This document shows positions 39,543-48,947 of a stretch of 64,000 nucleotides of DNA, in pieces. Position 1 is the first letter of the stretch. The number at the start of each line of letters is the position of its first letter. The position numbers and the translations under genes were made by a program. The notes beneath the pieces are model-generated. The model had not been told where the DNA came from. It did not search any database and was given only the letters and a program-made list of their open reading frames with translations. Source of the DNA: Melioribacteraceae bacterium (GTDB taxonomy: Bacteria > Bacteroidota > Ignavibacteria > Ignavibacteriales > Melioribacteraceae); assembly GCA_021739765.1 (NCBI GenBank), contig JAIPBD010000003.1, positions 186,001-250,000 of the forward strand, in the 5' to 3' direction.

Positions 39543-40016
39543 TTGTCGCATAAAAATACTATTCAAAGATTTGAATCCGGATGGCGGGAATGGGTCGCAC
39601 TCCCCGAATTAAAAATCCCTTCGATCAAGGTTAAGTTGGATACAGGTGCACGAACTTCATCACTTCATACATTTGATTTAGAAACATTTGAAGTACGAGG
39701 CCAACTTCGTGTTAAGTTTGGCGTACATCCGATTCAGCGTTCCACAAAAGCGGAAATATTCTGTACCGCAGATGTTATTGATACCAGGATAGTAAAAAAT
39801 TCCGGCGGCCATTTAGAAGAAAGATACGTGATCAAAACACCGATCATTTTTGGTGAACATCAATGGCCCATTGAAATTACCTTATCAAATCGAGAAGATA
39901 TGAAGTTTCGTATGTTACTCGGAAGAGAAGCTATGAGAAAACGTGTGAGTATTATACCGGATAAATCCTATTTAACCGGAAGGAAACTGGCGAAACATTA
40001 TCATTTAATGGGATAA
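39543..40016 (+). CDS. Retropepsin-like ATP-dependent zinc protease homologue (RimK-associated)
   Basis: The 157 residues match the PF05618-type family often encoded beside RimK: REWVALPELKIPSIKVKLDT, then GARTSSLHTFDLE with the aspartyl-protease-like DTGA (D33), and the late FRMLLGREAMRKR. The fold is retropepsin-like and monomers would dimerise. The start is TTG at 39543 with GGAAA upstream. It precedes rimK by 6 bp and the AstE-like gene follows, so the three probably work together, perhaps on glutamate-tagged peptides. Confidence 0.85.
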   Translation: MSHKNTIQRFESGWREWVALPELKIPSIKVKLDTGARTSSLHTFDLETFEVRGQLRVKFGVHPIQRSTKAEIFCTADVIDTRIVKNSGGHLEERYVIKTPIIFGEHQWPIEITLSNREDMKFRMLLGREAMRKRVSIIPDKSYLTGRKLAKHYHLMG

Positions 40017-40022
40017 CAAGAA

Positions 40023-40928
40023 ATGAAAATTGGAATATTATCAAGAAAACCCGAGCTTTATTCAACAAGACGGTTAGCGGAGGCTTGTGAGGAAAAAGGA
40101 CATGAAGTAAAAATTATAGATACGCTTCGGTGCTATATGAATATAACTTCTCATAATCCTGAAGTTCATTACAAAGGACAAAAATTAGAGGGATTTGATG
40201 CAATCATCCCACGAATTGGTGCCTCGATAACATTTTACGGAACGGCTGTCGTTCGACAATTTGAGATGATGGGAGTTTACAGTTTAAATGAATCTGTTGC
40301 TATTACCCGGTCAAGAGATAAATTACGGAGTTTACAACTGTTAGCGCGAAAAGGTGTCGGCGGAGCGGTGACAGGATTTGCCCACTCCACCCAGTATACC
40401 GAAGATTTAATAAAAATGGTTGGCGGCGCTCCGTTAATTGTAAAATTACTTGAAGGAACTCAAGGTATCGGTGTAATTCTTGCGGAAACCGATAAAGCGG
40501 CGGAGAGTGTAATCGAAGCTTTCCGAGGATTAAAAGCGAATATTCTTGTTCAGGAATATATAAAAGAAGCCGGCGGCGCTGATATTCGGTGCTTCGTGGT
40601 CGGTGATAAAGTTGTAGCTTCAATGATGCGAAAAGCTAAAGAAGGTGAATTTCGTTCAAATTTACACAGAGGTGGAACAGGCTCAATTATTAAAATTACA
40701 CCGGAAGAAAGATCAACCGCTGTTCGGGCCGCGAGAATTATGGGACTAAATCTCGCCGGAGTTGATATTCTGAGATCGAACCACGGACCGGTTGTTATGG
40801 AAGTTAATTCTTCTCCCGGACTGGAAGGGATTGAAAAATCAACCGGAAAAGATGTTGCAGGAATGGTAGTCGATTATATTCAGAAAAACGCAAGAGACGG
40901 CAAAACCCAAACGCGAGGCAAAGGTTAA
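40023..40928 (+). CDS. rimK: RimK-family ATP-grasp alpha-L-glutamate ligase
   Basis: An ATP-grasp enzyme that forms amide bonds; in E. coli RimK adds glutamates to the C-terminus of ribosomal protein S6. The 301 residues start [20 protein letters not shown] and have the family N-terminal domain ([20 protein letters not shown]), P-loop-like [11 protein letters not shown], and the metal site [20 protein letters not shown]. It sits between the retropepsin-like and AstE-like genes (6 and 2 bp gaps), an order known in several phyla. Whether S6 is the target here is unknown. Confidence 0.92.
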
Positions 40929-40930
40929 TT

Positions 40931-41947
40931 TTGATCAGAAAATCTATTATTATCGGCGGTGTTGAAATTCGACCCGGCGAAAGAAAAACTTTTGATATCG
41001 CTGTTGCCAGACTTTATACACATACCGACATGACAATTCCGATAACCGTAATTCATGGAGTTGAAGAAGGTCCCACGCTTTTTATCTGCGCCGCAATTCA
41101 TGGTGATGAAATTCAAGGTGTGGAAATAATCCGCAGATTACTGAAACTTGAAAACTTAAAAAATATAAAAGGCACCTTAATTGCTATTCCGGTCGTAAAT
41201 GTTTTTGGATTTATAAACCAAACACGTTACTCCCCCGATCGAAGGGATCTTAACAGATTCTTCCCGGGCACCGATTCAGGTTCGCTTACTTCCCAATTAG
41301 CAAAACTTTTTATGGAAGAAATTATTGAGAAGTGTACTCATGGAATCGATCTTCACACCGGATCAAATCACAGAACCAACCTCCCGCAAATTAGAGCTTA
41401 TCTCGACGATCCCGAAACCGAAAAACTGGCTAAAGCATTCGGCGCTCCGGTTATTCTCGACGCCAACTTATTAGGAGGTTCGTTAAGGCAGGCTGTAAAA
41501 GATATTGGAATTCCAGTACTGTTATATGAAGCGGGCGAAGTTCTTCGATTCGACGAAGTTTCGATTCAAGCAGGCATAAACGGTATTCTTGCGGTTATGA
41601 GTGAAATTAAAATGATGCAATTAGATCAGCATACAGAATCTACGATTACACCCCTAATTGCGCATTCAAGCACCTGGGTTCGCGCGCCAATCAGCGGCAT
41701 TCTAAGAAATAAAATTGAACTCGGACAATCTGTATCTGAAAATGAAATTTTAGGCGTAGTTTCGGATCCGTTCGGTGATGATGAGGAAAATGTAATCGCC
41801 GGCGCTTCCGGAATAATTATCGGACAATTAAAATTACCGCTGGTTTATAAAGGTGATGCGGTTTTTCATATCGCTAAATTCGATAGCAAGTCGGCGGCTA
41901 AAAATACTATCGAAGCATTCAGACAAGAGTTTGAGCCGGAAACTTAG
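40931..41947 (+). CDS. Succinylglutamate desuccinylase/aspartoacylase (AstE/AspA) family zinc hydrolase
   Basis: The 338 residues carry the zinc-carboxypeptidase-like site: H57-x-x-E60 in FICAAIHGDEIQG and a third ligand in HGIDLHTGSNH. The C-terminal 90 residues (VRAPISGILRNKIELGQSVS) are a barrel-like lid. It starts with TTG at 40931, 2 bp after the rimK stop, so it is probably co-translated. The family cleaves acyl-amino-acid bonds; with rimK it might remove or recycle glutamate tags (inference). Confidence 0.88.
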   Translation: MIRKSIIIGGVEIRPGERKTFDIAVARLYTHTDMTIPITVIHGVEEGPTLFICAAIHGDEIQGVEIIRRLLKLENLKNIKGTLIAIPVVNVFGFINQTRYSPDRRDLNRFFPGTDSGSLTSQLAKLFMEEIIEKCTHGIDLHTGSNHRTNLPQIRAYLDDPETEKLAKAFGAPVILDANLLGGSLRQAVKDIGIPVLLYEAGEVLRFDEVSIQAGINGILAVMSEIKMMQLDQHTESTITPLIAHSSTWVRAPISGILRNKIELGQSVSENEILGVVSDPFGDDEENVIAGASGIIIGQLKLPLVYKGDAVFHIAKFDSKSAAKNTIEAFRQEFEPET

Positions 41948-44806: not shown

Positions 44807-44830
44807 TTCCGGAGTTTAAGACTTTTATCA

Positions 44831-44862
44831 AAAGCCGGGAACGATTTCCCGGCTTTTTTGTT
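44831..44862 (+). terminator. Rho-independent terminator after the M16 pair
   Basis: Perfect 11 bp arms AAAGCCGGGAA and TTCCCGGCTTT with a 4-base loop (CGAT), followed by TTTG TTTT. It starts 25 bp after the stop of the second M16 gene. Confidence 0.92.
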
Positions 44863-44903
44863 TTAAATCACATCATTCGCGGTTATAGATCACAAAACAG
44901 AAC

Positions 44904-44920
44904 AATTTTTGATTATAGTG
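44904..44920. repeat. Isolated third copy of the ATPase-upstream motif
   Basis: AATTTTTGATTATAGTG differs at one position from the first 17 bases of the second tandem repeat at 34594. Here no DUF4143 gene follows; the next gene downstream is the convergent GCS2-type ligase. It may be all that is left of a lost ATPase gene. Confidence 0.45.
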
Positions 44921-44989
44921 ACAACTATCATTTCCCTTGCGCGTCATAAATACTATAATGCGAACGAGTTAAACAAAAAGGTAGCAGAG

Positions 44990-45119
44990 ATTTGAAAAAT
45001 GAATGGGTGCATATTTCTCGTCTGTAACCTCCTTTTGAACAGCGGCTTCAGCCGCTGTTTTTAGTTTAAAGCCTAATCCATGAGACAATACAAATTGTGC
45101 CACAGATTATCAATCTGTG
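44990..45119. repeat. Palindrome-rich REP-like element
   Basis: A TGAATGGGTGCAT block at about 44999-45011, then a 10 bp perfect inverted repeat AACAGCGGCT/AGCCGCTGTT (45038-45059, loop TC), and a second inverted repeat CACAGATT/AATCTGTG (45101-45119). Together with 44807-44989 this fills the 327 bp gap without genes. The composition of short GC hairpins between genes is that of REP or transposase-linked dispersed elements. No transposase is close. Confidence 0.5.
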
Positions 45120-45133
45120 CTAAACTAAACCGG

Positions 45134-46366
45134 TCAGACTCTAAACATTTCATTTTTTGCCAGGCAATCAGCCAATTCAAAATATACCGCATTTAGATTC
45201 TTTGGTGAAAAATCATTTTTTACGGCTCTGATAATTCTGGATGAAAGCGTTCCATTCTTGATTATTGCTTGAATTACTTCCGCATGAGGGGTTTTACTGA
45301 AATCTTTTAATTCTTCAAAAATGTATTGAAGCAGATCTTTAGCGGAAATTTTCTGACTTCCTTCAAGTCCAAATAAACCGAGATAGTTTTTATTAGTTAT
45401 AATAGAACTTTCCGCTACTTTGATTACATTAAATAAAATTCTTGCAAGTTCATCTTCGTCTGCAGCTTTTAATTCATCTAATGGCCGCCATTCTTCATTA
45501 ATAAATTTTTTGAGAAGTTCAGTTACGAATGCCGCAATCGATATATCGACTTTTGGCGATTCCTGAATATCCAATGTTCTGATTTCAATTGTTTTTCGTT
45601 GGAAACGGGCGATCGCTCCTCGCGAATTTAACCATTCATGCCGAAGCAATTTATCCGTATCGAATTTTTCGATATTCGAATAAATCCATTCTAAAATTTC
45701 CTCTTTGTAATCTTCCCGAGTAAATACTCTTTCGGGAATTATTGAACCGGTGATCGAAGGAATTCGTGATTGGTTTTTACGATAAAATTCGAGTCTGACA
45801 TCACGTGAGCCGGAAAATTTACCATCGATAATTGGAGAACTTGCCGCAAGAGCGGGTAAAATCGGTAATACAGCTCTAATTGCCGCGTGTAGATTGCCGA
45901 ATTCTTCATCACCTTTGTATGGCAAATTAATATGGGTACTTTGAAGATTTGACCAACCATGACCTTTACAATTGAAAATTTTATCGTATGCTTCGTAAAC
46001 AGCGCTATTATGATGAGGCCAAATTTTTGTTTCCTTTAAAGGATCCATTGTGGGATGGACGGCGCTTGGAAGCAGAATTGCGTTGTGACTTTCTAATAGT
46101 TTATTTAACTCTTTCACAACCCTGTGAAAAGAATCATCAAGATTATTTAACGATAATGCAGGTCCATTCGTTTTTAACTCGATTACGTGGAGGACTATTT
46201 CATTCGAAATCTCAATGTCGCCAAATTCAGCATCCGATTTATATTCGCCCGTAACGGATTTAATAATTTCATCCGAAATGGGCTTAACTTTTAGATTATC
46301 TTTGTCAACAATCATGTATTCCAATTCAATACCGAAACGTTCGAATAAATGAATTGATTCACTCAT
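45134..46366 (-). CDS. GCS2-type glutamate-cysteine ligase family carboxylate-amine ligase
   Basis: The 410 residues show the GCS2 fold: FGIELEYMIVD at the N-terminus, DIEISNEIVLHVIELKTNGP, WSNLQSTHINLPYKG, and IARFQRKTIEIRTLDIQE. Proteins of this group couple a carboxylate to an amine using ATP. In glutathione synthesis the product is gamma-glutamylcysteine; in ATP-grasp-linked operons like this the substrates are unknown. The ATG overlaps the end of the ATP-grasp gene by 4 bp. It is the last gene of a three-gene operon. Not a standard gshA neighbour set, as no glutathione synthetase is adjacent. Confidence 0.85.
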   Translation of the reverse strand: MSESIHLFERFGIELEYMIVDKDNLKVKPISDEIIKSVTGEYKSDAEFGDIEISNEIVLHVIELKTNGPALSLNNLDDSFHRVVKELNKLLESHNAILLPSAVHPTMDPLKETKIWPHHNSAVYEAYDKIFNCKGHGWSNLQSTHINLPYKGDEEFGNLHAAIRAVLPILPALAASSPIIDGKFSGSRDVRLEFYRKNQSRIPSITGSIIPERVFTREDYKEEILEWIYSNIEKFDTDKLLRHEWLNSRGAIARFQRKTIEIRTLDIQESPKVDISIAAFVTELLKKFINEEWRPLDELKAADEDELARILFNVIKVAESSIITNKNYLGLFGLEGSQKISAKDLLQYIFEELKDFSKTPHAEVIQAIIKNGTLSSRIIRAVKNDFSPKNLNAVYFELADCLAKNEMFRV

Positions 46367-47835
46367 AAATTAATCTCCTTTCTAAGTCGCATTGTTTCAA
46401 GTCTATCATAAAAAACTTTCATTATACTCATGTATATATCCATTTTCCCGATTTTATCTTCAACACCATATTCAATAGATGGGTTGTCGTTAATCTCTAT
46501 TACAAAAATTTCCTTGCCCGATTGTTTAATATCAACTCCATATAATCCGTCACCGATTAAATTGGTTGCTTTCAAAGCAGTTTTAATAATTTTCTCCGGA
46601 ACATCCTTTAAATCAAGTGTTTCATAGTTGCCGGTGTTATCGTCACCATTGGCTTTCCAATTATAAATCTGCCAGTGGTTTTTCGCCATAAAGTATTTAC
46701 ACGCGTAAATAGGTTGACGGTTAATAATTCCGATTCTCCAATCAAAATCGGAATACTTAAATTCTTGTGCAATAACTAAATCAGAAATATCAAATAATCT
46801 TTCAAGTTCGTCGTTTAGTTCTGTTTTGTTTTCAACTTTTATAACCCCTTGTGAAAAAGAACTATCCGGTTGTTTCAGCACTATTGGAAATTTGAGTTGT
46901 GTTTCAATTTGAGCCTTATTTTCTCTGCTTGCTACAACTGTATTAACTGTGGGAACCTTTGCTTTCGCCAATATTTCAGCAAGATAAACCTTGTTTGAAC
47001 ATTTTACAATCGAACGCGGATCATCGATTACGAAAAGCCCTTCAGCAAATGCTCTTCTGGCAAACCGGTATGTGTGATGATTTACGGAAGTTGTTTCACG
47101 GATAAATAAAGCATCGAATTCCGGTATCCTGTTAAAATCATTTTTTGTTATCAGTTCAGCCCTTATGTTATTTTCTTCCGCCGCTTTTATAAATTGTTTT
47201 ATTGCTTTTGGATCGGAAGGAGCTTCTTTTTCATCAGGATTGACCAGAATCGCCAAATCATATCTTGTGCGTGATACTTTTGCCGAATGAATTCTTTGCT
47301 TGGAAAAATATTCCACGGCAAATTTTTCTACATAAGGCAAATGTGGCTTCGGTATTTCATTTACGGGAATTGGCGAAATATTTTGAACCATCCATTTTTT
47401 ATTAAACACAAACACCGCACGAATAAGAGGAGCTTGAAATAATGATCCCAATTGCTGCGCAAGACTATCATACTGCGATGAAAGGTTTTTCCCAAAATAA
47501 ATGCTTAAAACAAACTTCTCGGATTTTATTTTTTTTAGTTCTTTTTGAATTAATTGATCAATATCCTCGGAGATTATTTTAACAATTGTTTGCGATTTTA
47601 AATCCTGAATTGTAGAAACATTTGGAAATACACGATGCCCCCTCGCTTCGGCCAAAAGTGATACATAATAACCAGTTGATTGATATCTGTACGAACGGCA
47701 GAGATTAAAAATTCTGTAGCTTTTGGAATCGGTTAAATTGTGATTCATCAAATAACTTTTTGCGGCTATTAATTCAACTCCATCGATATTAAAATTCCAG
47801 TCCTTAGGATTATTTACAACAACTAACGTTTTCAT
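46363..47835 (-). CDS. RimK-type ATP-grasp ligase with extra N-terminal domain (RLAN type)
   Basis: The 490 residues divide into an N-terminal domain (about 1-200: MKTLVVVNNPKDWNFNIDGV, YRIFNLCRSYRYQSTGYYVS, ARGHRVFPN) as seen in long RimK relatives, and a C-terminal ATP-grasp (about 205-480: FDALFIRETTSVNHHTYRFA, KFPIVLKQPDSSFSQGVIKV, QEFKYSDFDWRIGIINRQPI, YGVDIKQSGKEIFVIEINDN). It should activate a carboxylate as acyl-phosphate and attach an amine or amino acid. Both ends overlap neighbours by 4 bp. It is distinct from the shorter rimK at 40023. Confidence 0.88.
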   Translation of the reverse strand: MKTLVVVNNPKDWNFNIDGVELIAAKSYLMNHNLTDSKSYRIFNLCRSYRYQSTGYYVSLLAEARGHRVFPNVSTIQDLKSQTIVKIISEDIDQLIQKELKKIKSEKFVLSIYFGKNLSSQYDSLAQQLGSLFQAPLIRAVFVFNKKWMVQNISPIPVNEIPKPHLPYVEKFAVEYFSKQRIHSAKVSRTRYDLAILVNPDEKEAPSDPKAIKQFIKAAEENNIRAELITKNDFNRIPEFDALFIRETTSVNHHTYRFARRAFAEGLFVIDDPRSIVKCSNKVYLAEILAKAKVPTVNTVVASRENKAQIETQLKFPIVLKQPDSSFSQGVIKVENKTELNDELERLFDISDLVIAQEFKYSDFDWRIGIINRQPIYACKYFMAKNHWQIYNWKANGDDNTGNYETLDLKDVPEKIIKTALKATNLIGDGLYGVDIKQSGKEIFVIEINDNPSIEYGVEDKIGKMDIYMSIMKVFYDRLETMRLRKEINL

Positions 47836-48542
47836 TTATTTTTATCTCGAGGTGTAATTAATAAAAGATTACTATCATAAGTATTTATACTCAACATTAT
47901 AGAATTTAATAATCTTCCAATATCTACGTAATAGTATTTTTCTCCGGAGATCGGATTCTCTTTGTATGGATCAGAAACTGAAACCACCCTTTTCTCTTTA
48001 TCAAATGACGATAGCAATACAAAGTGTCCTGTATTATATCCTTTTGTATCATGATAAACTGCTTGATCTTCCTCATTTGTAAATTCGCGGCTGCAGTTAT
48101 AAAGATAAGTCGCGCTTAATCCCGTTAAAATTGGAATCCCTTTATTAAAAAATTTCATTAATAATTTTGGATTAAGATCAACCGATTTAATTTTCCCGCC
48201 GAGACGCAGAAACTCAATGTATTCAAGCGAAGCCGCACGAAGTTTTGAGCTTTTTTTGTACTTCAATTGTTCTTTTAATTTTGCCGAAATGTTTACCTCT
48301 CCTGAAAACCATGTCGGATCAAATACGGTCAGATTGTAAGTGTATATTGTTGCGTCATATCCTTGCTTAAGTGCATGATTTGCCAGCATAACCGACAAAG
48401 TTCCGCCGGTTTCCAAACTGCCGACTTCATGAATAATTTTGTCGATATCGACCGGTTCGCCATAATAGTTGTAAACCGCGTGAAGGCAAGTCGGGCCGCA
48501 CGTAATATCGTTAGGTTGTTGTAGTATTTTGATCGAATTCAT
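47832..48542 (-). CDS. C39-like papain-fold cysteine peptidase
   Basis: The 236 residues carry a C39-type layout: Gln9 and catalytic Cys15 in ILQQPNDITCGPTCLHAVYN, His173 in TGHFVLLSSF and Asp191 in VSVSDPYKE. There is no signal peptide or transporter domain, so it is cytoplasmic, unlike bacteriocin-exporter C39 domains. It is first in the operon with the ATP-grasp and GCS2-like genes and overlaps the ATP-grasp gene by 4 bp. It may process a precursor before ligation, or act as a transferase or hydrolase on the product; the sequence alone does not tell. Confidence 0.82.
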   Translation of the reverse strand: MNSIKILQQPNDITCGPTCLHAVYNYYGEPVDIDKIIHEVGSLETGGTLSVMLANHALKQGYDATIYTYNLTVFDPTWFSGEVNISAKLKEQLKYKKSSKLRAASLEYIEFLRLGGKIKSVDLNPKLLMKFFNKGIPILTGLSATYLYNCSREFTNEEDQAVYHDTKGYNTGHFVLLSSFDKEKRVVSVSDPYKENPISGEKYYYVDIGRLLNSIMLSINTYDSNLLLITPRDKNK

Positions 48543-48679: not shown

Positions 48680-48895
48680 ATGTCAGAGGATCTCTACCTT
48701 TCTTACAAATTCCGGAACCGAAAAACCGGTGAAATTTCAAAGGGATTTGTTCATATCCCAAACGTTGAAAATCATGCGATTGGGCTTAAGGATAAATTTA
48801 ACATTCATGATTTTAAAATAATCGAACGCAATTTTTCTAAAAAGGAAGATTATGATGAATGGCGCAGGATGAACAGAAAAACAGTCGGCGTTTAG
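48680..48895 (+). CDS. Small charged protein, divergent from the amide-ligase operon
   Basis: A 71-residue protein (MSEDLYLSYKFRNRKTGEIS at the start, NFSKKEDYDEWRRMNRK near the end) with many Lys, Glu, Asp and Arg. I chose ATG at 48680 because GGGGG lies 8 bases before it; an in-frame ATG at 48665 has no such site. I recognise no family. It shares a 137 bp promoter region with the peptidase-first operon on the other strand. It may be unrelated, or a substrate or partner of those enzymes. Confidence 0.6.
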   Translation: MSEDLYLSYKFRNRKTGEISKGFVHIPNVENHAIGLKDKFNIHDFKIIERNFSKKEDYDEWRRMNRKTVGV

Positions 48896-48947
48896 TAATT
48901 ATTTTCATCTTAATTCAATAAATACAACCGGTTGCTTTTAGCCACCC

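Follow-up and report, generated by a model that had tools for sequence, protein, structure and literature searches.

What does a bacterium make with two ATP-dependent ligases and a cysteine hydrolase whose genes run into one another? The question is raised by a three-gene operon in a 64,000-nucleotide stretch of the genome of a Melioribacteraceae bacterium (contig JAIPBD010000003.1, positions 186,001 to 250,000), here called the window. One ligase is an ATP-grasp enzyme with an N-terminal RLAN domain, the other has the GCS2 fold, and the hydrolase is C39-like. Amidoligase systems were reportedly predicted from comparative genomics by Iyer and colleagues in 2009, and we rate the operon as belonging to a predicted but uncharacterised kind of such system. 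Relatives of the ATP-grasp gene have as neighbour either a GCS2 ligase or an acetyltransferase of the GNAT family, and none of 160 sampled loci has both. The reading that we favour, with our confidence evenly balanced, is that the product is a small peptide, non-ribosomal and N-capped, and that the operon also supplies a hydrolase that processes or recycles it.

Two ligases and a cysteine hydrolase

All three open reading frames lie on the minus strand. The first (47832-48542) encodes a C39-like papain-fold cysteine hydrolase or transferase of 236 amino acids (Pfam Peptidase_C39_2, 8e-11, and conserved residues), the second (46363-47835) an RLAN plus RimK-type ATP-grasp ligase of 490 amino acids, and the third (45134-46366) a GCS2-fold carboxylate-amine ligase of 410 amino acids, predicted to be gamma-glutamyl (GCS2, PF04107, 2e-26). 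The junctions are 4-base overlaps, both of them ATGA, at 47832-47835 between the C39 and RLAN genes and at 46363-46366 between the RLAN and GCS2 genes, precisely where the original prediction, made from the letters of the window, had put them. The 490 codons of the second frame are the longest open run in the window, and the maximum in 500 mononucleotide shuffles was 166. In the 4.5 Mb genome, the RLAN and GCS2 of the operon are each the sole match of their kind (E <= 0.001).

The ATP-grasp protein had been described as carrying an extra N-terminal domain of about 200 residues. The sequence ahead of the ATP-grasp is in fact some 190 residues long, and 142 of these (residues 25-166; 47338-47763, minus strand) are modelled by Pfam as RLAN (PF14401, 9e-48). 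The ATP-grasp domain follows at residues 280-471 (46423-46998, minus strand; RimK, PF08443, 5.5e-13) and has the expected conserved residues, of which D435, E447 and N449 align with residues of RimK. The window GCS2 shares its fold with the glutamate-cysteine ligase and YbdK families and lies below the cut-offs of both equivalogs; the best of the 12 families listed is TIGR02050, at 52.8 bits of the 176.4 needed, and identity to YbdK carboxylate-amine ligases is 14%. Confident structure models of both ligases have the expected folds. A loss of catalytic residues from the ligases, which would have spoken against the original prediction, was not seen: they are invariant in alignments of 39 ATP-grasp and 40 GCS2 sequences.

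The hydrolase has the catalytic residues Gln9, Cys15, His173 and Asp191. The last three, found as previously placed, do not vary among 35 aligned relatives, and all 60 operon C39 proteins compared keep the Gln, Cys, His and Asp columns, which are the catalytic set of the papain-like clan CA. Unlike the C39 peptidases that process bacteriocins, the window protein is a lone C39 domain of 236 amino acids without fusion to an ABC transporter, and a signal peptide is not obvious by eye.

Both features of the RLAN-ATP-grasp amidoligase systems (PF14401) are thus found here: RLAN followed by a RimK-type ATP-grasp with its catalytic residues, and an amine-acylating neighbour (GNAT or GCS2), in this case a GCS2 gene overlapping by 4 bp. 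In the open-licence literature, which leaves out most subscription papers, no study of RLAN function or of the operon was among the matches listed.

Partner exchange and the accompanying hydrolases

Of 395 genomes from the window's phylum, 44 have RLAN; the counts are 72 of 398 for the Legionella phylum, 14 of 297 for the Desulfoprunum phylum and 32 of 198 for the Leptospiraceae phylum, the phylum names being deduced from named centre records. Four phylum samples gave 160 loci, in which partners were sought within 5 kb of the RLAN-ATP-grasp: 55 had GCS2, 94 had GNAT, 11 had neither and none had both, so that one or the other was near in 149 of the 160. GNAT partners occur fused, adjacent or as GNAT-C39, and the GNAT and DUF3335 search models used to count them were built from the same loci and hence tuned to them. 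Two pieces in one genome (G1047) were counted as one locus. The window's phylum, with 44 RLAN genomes, contributed 41 loci (G239, G360 and G370 were left out), 30 with GCS2, 11 with GNAT and none with both. The 398 genomes of the Legionella phylum held 75 RLAN places, and GNAT was near in 72 of them, as GNAT-C39 in 50, alone in 19 and with an additional fused GNAT in 3. One locus of that phylum, in Legionella itself, has GCS2, C39 and a fourth gene, FGase, discussed below; two have neither partner, and one of these (L242) is on a stretch that begins at the start of its contig. Chance GNAT neighbours are rare, two GNATs being seen in merely 4 of the 72. Two further phyla were sampled after the prediction had been fixed and gave 44 loci, with GCS2 in 24, GNAT in 11, both in none and neither in 9. 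Operon-type GCS2 was absent from six of six GNAT-type genomes searched whole. A contig scan with the ATP-grasp, which is biased towards the query, shares material with the samples (L074 and L221 come from one genome) and was excluded from the 160, gave 68 loci: 47 with GCS2, 21 with GNAT and again none with both.

The fusion of GNAT to the C39-like DUF3335 domain beside an ATP-grasp was first met at L144, a distant locus from the window's phylum, and on plasmids of Azospirillum and Tistrella, Pfam having been run on L144 only. An excerpt of a 2023 paper (PMC10318531) cites the 2009 Iyer amidoligase study for GNAT-DUF3335 fusions. Such systems have the same RLAN-ATP-grasp as the window operon and a homologous C39 domain (hhalign probability 97.3%, E 2.4e-11); they differ in that the window type has GCS2 in place of GNAT, and in that GCS2-type relatives often add FGase. 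The Gln, Cys and His columns are kept in 57 of 57 DUF3335 forms, with every Asp column below 93%. Of the 55 GCS2 loci, 51 have a C39 domain nearby, and in 58 of the 94 GNAT loci the GNAT is fused to one.

The ATP-grasp hardly changes with the partner. K282, K321, D365-W-R367, H387-W-Q-I390, D435, E447 and N449 are conserved at 97% or more in 182 relatives of both types and, as these are active-site residues, comparison of the sequences indicates that the reaction is probably the same in GCS2-type and GNAT-type systems. By our own criterion the two types are separated at four positions only (89, 111, 117 and 165), all within RLAN, a result confounded by phylogeny, near-copies and the lower conservation of RLAN. 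At GCS2-type loci the partners vary together: identity of GCS2 tracks that of the ATP-grasp (Spearman 0.55, n=30), as does identity of C39 (0.43, n=25), with 0 of 999 permutations as high in either case, and FGase follows more weakly (0.30, n=19; 13 of 999 permutations as high). GNAT and GCS2 both acylate amino groups, GNAT from acetyl-CoA and GCS2 through an ATP-activated carboxylate. Their interchange beside a conserved ATP-grasp therefore suggests that the core product is shared by the two types and that its N-cap is exchangeable.

The order C39, RLAN-ATP-grasp, GCS2 is found in at least five phylum-level groups, so that the original expectation of a gene order shared with relatives held. 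The commonest GCS2-type arrangement continues with a fourth gene, FGase, of the N-formylglutamate-amidohydrolase family (PF05013). All four genes lie within 5 kb in 37 of the 55 GCS2 loci, and FGase is near 41 of those 55 and near none of the 94 GNAT loci. Relatives of the same family as the window (L105-L108) have the four-gene order. At the equivalent place the window has a gap, 44807-45133, with no open reading frame of 80 amino acids or more in the list, and FGase has no match in the entire genome (E <= 0.001).

Either hydrolase can be missing. No C39 match was seen in four genomes with RLAN, GCS2 and FGase (Jejuia and three others, these belonging to one family), and whole-genome searches of two others (G420 and G421) found the RLAN-GCS2 pair without either hydrolase. 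Fibrobacter often has the operon in two parts, the ligases forming one pair and C39 and FGase the other. Six Fibrobacter genomes have RLAN-GCS2 alone at one place; C39 is elsewhere in all six and FGase elsewhere in five. Where both hydrolases were found (n=5), their genes are adjacent in three (L153-L155, with a 4-bp overlap in two) and apart in two; four of the five FGase matches read through one stop codon, the open frames themselves being 218-239 amino acids long. Two Fibrobacter loci (L039 and L097) hold all four genes together. The operon looks like a retained ligase pair plus a hydrolase pair of which either member may be lost. The original prediction had the cysteine peptidase trim, transfer or remove what the ligases built. 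Since some lineages have both ligases and are without C39 or FGase anywhere in the genome, the two hydrolases appear to serve in processing or turnover.

A proposed capped peptide and its rivals

How the enzymes might work together can be set out step by step. GCS2 would use ATP to activate the side-chain carboxylate of glutamate as an acyl phosphate and couple it to X, an amine or amino acid, at its amino group. The RLAN-ATP-grasp would activate a carboxylate in the same way and attach it at the amino group of a further unit, Y, and with either ligation first the product would be gamma-Glu-X-Y. In the GNAT-type relatives, GNAT would replace GCS2 and the same core product would carry an acetyl cap. 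The C39-like enzyme, through an acyl-Cys intermediate, would hydrolyse or transfer the bond made by the ATP-grasp; it is assigned to this bond because its homologous forms are present with both GCS2 and GNAT, and so it goes with the shared ATP-grasp step. FGase, absent from the window genome, would remove the glutamyl cap, an assignment made because among the loci it stands beside GCS2 only. The two ATP-driven ligations and the cysteine hydrolase of the original prediction fit the fold evidence. FGase is to be added to it as a frequent fourth gene, and the GNAT found in place of GCS2 in other relatives points to N-capping instead of a generic second peptide bond.

A wider proposition is offered tentatively, as we think it rather doubtful: that there is a widespread class of short N-capped peptides made by RLAN-ATP-grasp operons, the cap being modular (acetyl by GNAT or gamma-glutamyl by GCS2) and RLAN recognising the cap or its enzyme. 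These peptides would form a third general family of cytoplasmic capped peptides beside glutathione and N-acetylglutaminylglutamine (NAGGN). The role suggested for RLAN comes from the only positions that separate the types by our criterion, which lie in that domain while the catalytic half is unchanged. If the capped-peptide reading is true, a metabolite common to many bacteria has so far gone unrecognised, and the core molecule would be the same in organisms that differ in its cap, acetyl or glutamyl.

The nearest characterised analogue is the NAGGN pathway (Ngg; AsnO; aminopeptidase), of which Ngg is presumably a GNAT plus an ATP-grasp; the GNAT-type relatives of the window operon share its logic of parts. 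In an excerpt of one paper (PMC8070244), Ngg makes the osmolyte NAGGN by acetylating one glutamine and linking it to another, and there is a peptidase in the operon. The window operon differs in having another ATP-grasp subfamily with RLAN, GCS2 for GNAT and C39 for the aminopeptidase. Its ATP-grasp has no GNAT match at E 0.1, and the Ngg model (TIGR03103) is not among the matches listed (25 of 42 families). The split relative L144 stays below the TIGR03103 cut-off of 569, with 38.1 for its GNAT-C39 protein and 19.7 for its ATP-grasp.

Several findings weigh against the capped-peptide reading. On a quick tree (182 of 188 sequences were long enough, 88 rows were left after removal of near-copies and one long branch was flagged) there are two changes of the GCS2/GNAT label, and placing every GCS2 row in one group gives a slightly better fit (approximately unbiased test, p 0.707). 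Therefore, the exclusivity may be one event inherited many times, and the loci are not independent; a single switch from GNAT to GCS2, later kept through wide divergence and spread, may lie behind it rather than 160 independent events. Nor was the fixed prediction fully borne out, as 9 of the 44 loci have no nearby partner. In three of the nine genomes a GCS2 of the operon type lies away from the locus (506-511 bits); the other six have no GCS2 genome-wide, one locus (L318) being cut by a contig end and five remaining unexplained. Within the GNAT type, 36 of 94 loci have no C39 nearby, 20 of 115 GNAT domains are without the usual acetyl-CoA motif (by our own pattern), and one of two GNAT-type genomes searched whole for FGase (G412; locus L145) has an FGase of the operon subfamily elsewhere, beside a Crp-like gene, against the glutamyl assignment. 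Among genomes with the three genes, nine others besides that of the window gave no FGase match in a whole-genome search that detected the positive control (G070), and C39 was not found in four genomes picked for the absence of an adjacent C39 (G226, G198, G355 and G403); neither hydrolase is thus essential everywhere.

Other points would fit modification of a protein or peptide tag, in which the ligases would extend the end or a side chain of a protein by glutamyl and one other unit and C39 would trim the tag or a precursor. The closest folds to the ATP-grasp in the structural match list (residues 189-485) are ArgX, LysX and RimK, enzymes that act on proteins, namely protein S6 or the carrier protein LysW. 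With the model of RimI, which is a protein N-acetyltransferase, the GNAT part of one GNAT-C39 protein reaches 76.7, close to the 86.4 needed; PafA and Dop have the GCS2 fold too, at lower Z; and the C39 fold is papain-like. Set against RimK, LysX and ArgX, the window enzyme has RLAN and a conserved HWQI stretch, its operon has no carrier-protein gene, and its scores fall below the RimK cut-offs (TIGR00768, 76.7 of 143.4; NF007764, 20.3 of 331). We regard protein tagging as a serious competitor, though on the unlikely side.

A glutathione-like thiol pathway, in which GCS2 would form gamma-Glu-Cys, the ATP-grasp would add a third residue and C39 would act like phytochelatin synthase, seems improbable. 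Glutathione synthesis, by a GCS2-type glutamate-cysteine ligase and GshB, does use the same two folds, but the window enzymes are below the listed GshA, EgtA, YbdK and GshB cut-offs, the glutamate-cysteine ligase models listed scoring far under theirs, and none of the window proteins matches phytochelatin synthase (PF05023) at E 0.1. In the window genome GshB (TIGR01380) is never above its cut-off, its best score, 65.1 bits where 299 are needed, falling on the window RimK. GshB is above the cut-off in four of four operon-bearing Legionellaceae genomes searched, so plain glutathione made by the operon would be redundant there and is set aside; a related gamma-glutamyl compound is possible. Maturation of a ribosomal, graspetide-like peptide, with C39 removing a leader, the ATP-grasp cross-linking or extending and GCS2 or GNAT capping the new N-terminus, is very improbable, for although C39 peptidases and ATP-grasps both serve in graspetide-like systems and the GNAT-C39 fusion exists, the C39 has no transporter fusion and a crude search of 3087 small open reading frames within 700 bases of operons gave, as the eight largest families listed, low-complexity or single-lineage sequences.

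Neighbouring genes and other observations

Some loci depart from the common arrangements. Among the partnerless loci of the Leptospiraceae phylum, L294, L303 and L306 are C39-RLAN, with GCS2 elsewhere in the genome, and L302, L304, L305, L307 and L310 are RLAN alone, with GCS2 not found in the genome. A search of plasmids matched 24 records, with a named feature under the match in 6 of the 15 listed. Plasmid pZYPA1927 of Pseudomonas aeruginosa (L167) carries a solitary RLAN-ATP-grasp, with GNAT, GCS2 and C39 not found in the stretch fetched, and five IMG/VR contigs (L162-L166) have RLAN-type ATP-grasps, some apparently without the RLAN domain. At L100:462-4218, a cyanophycin-synthetase-like ligase and an isoaspartyl-peptidase-like gene (judged by eye) lie upstream of the RLAN-GCS2 pair.

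Two genes recur beside RLAN. A DUF155 (RMND1/Sif2-type) gene is near it in 19 loci of both partner types (L134, L137, L139, L085, L088, L038 and 13 loci of the Legionella phylum), in several directly upstream of C39 or downstream of RLAN; Pfam was run on three. A DUF2817 gene stands beside GNAT-C39/RLAN pairs in 14 loci of the Legionella phylum (for example L232:7782-8915), on the opposite strand in 13 of the 14 (Pfam on one), and this neighbourhood is possibly merely lineage synteny.

Rfam has no match at gathering score in 11 operon loci, and its three matches in the window are all below that score (E 0.17-0.47), so that there is no hint of a riboswitch. Four proteins compared with PADLOC match none of its families of known anti-phage defence proteins at E 0.001. 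A terminator-like palindrome lies downstream of the GCS2 gene at 45037-45060 (a consensus match only, scored on the plus strand), one of 4 in the window against 2.9 expected from shuffles. The divergent gap on the upstream side of the C39 gene contains a small open frame of about 70 codons (48686-48898, plus strand).

Three kb from the operon, on the plus strand at 39543-41947, lies a classical RimK operon of a RimB-type Zn_protease, RimK and an AstE/aspartoacylase-like enzyme. This RimK scores 478.8 with NF007764, above the cut-off of 331. A tight functional link between the two operons was considered and set aside; RimK beside RLAN is confirmed by Pfam in two GNAT-type loci, L060 and L075, where Zn_protease-RimK fusions adjoin the GNAT-RLAN genes.

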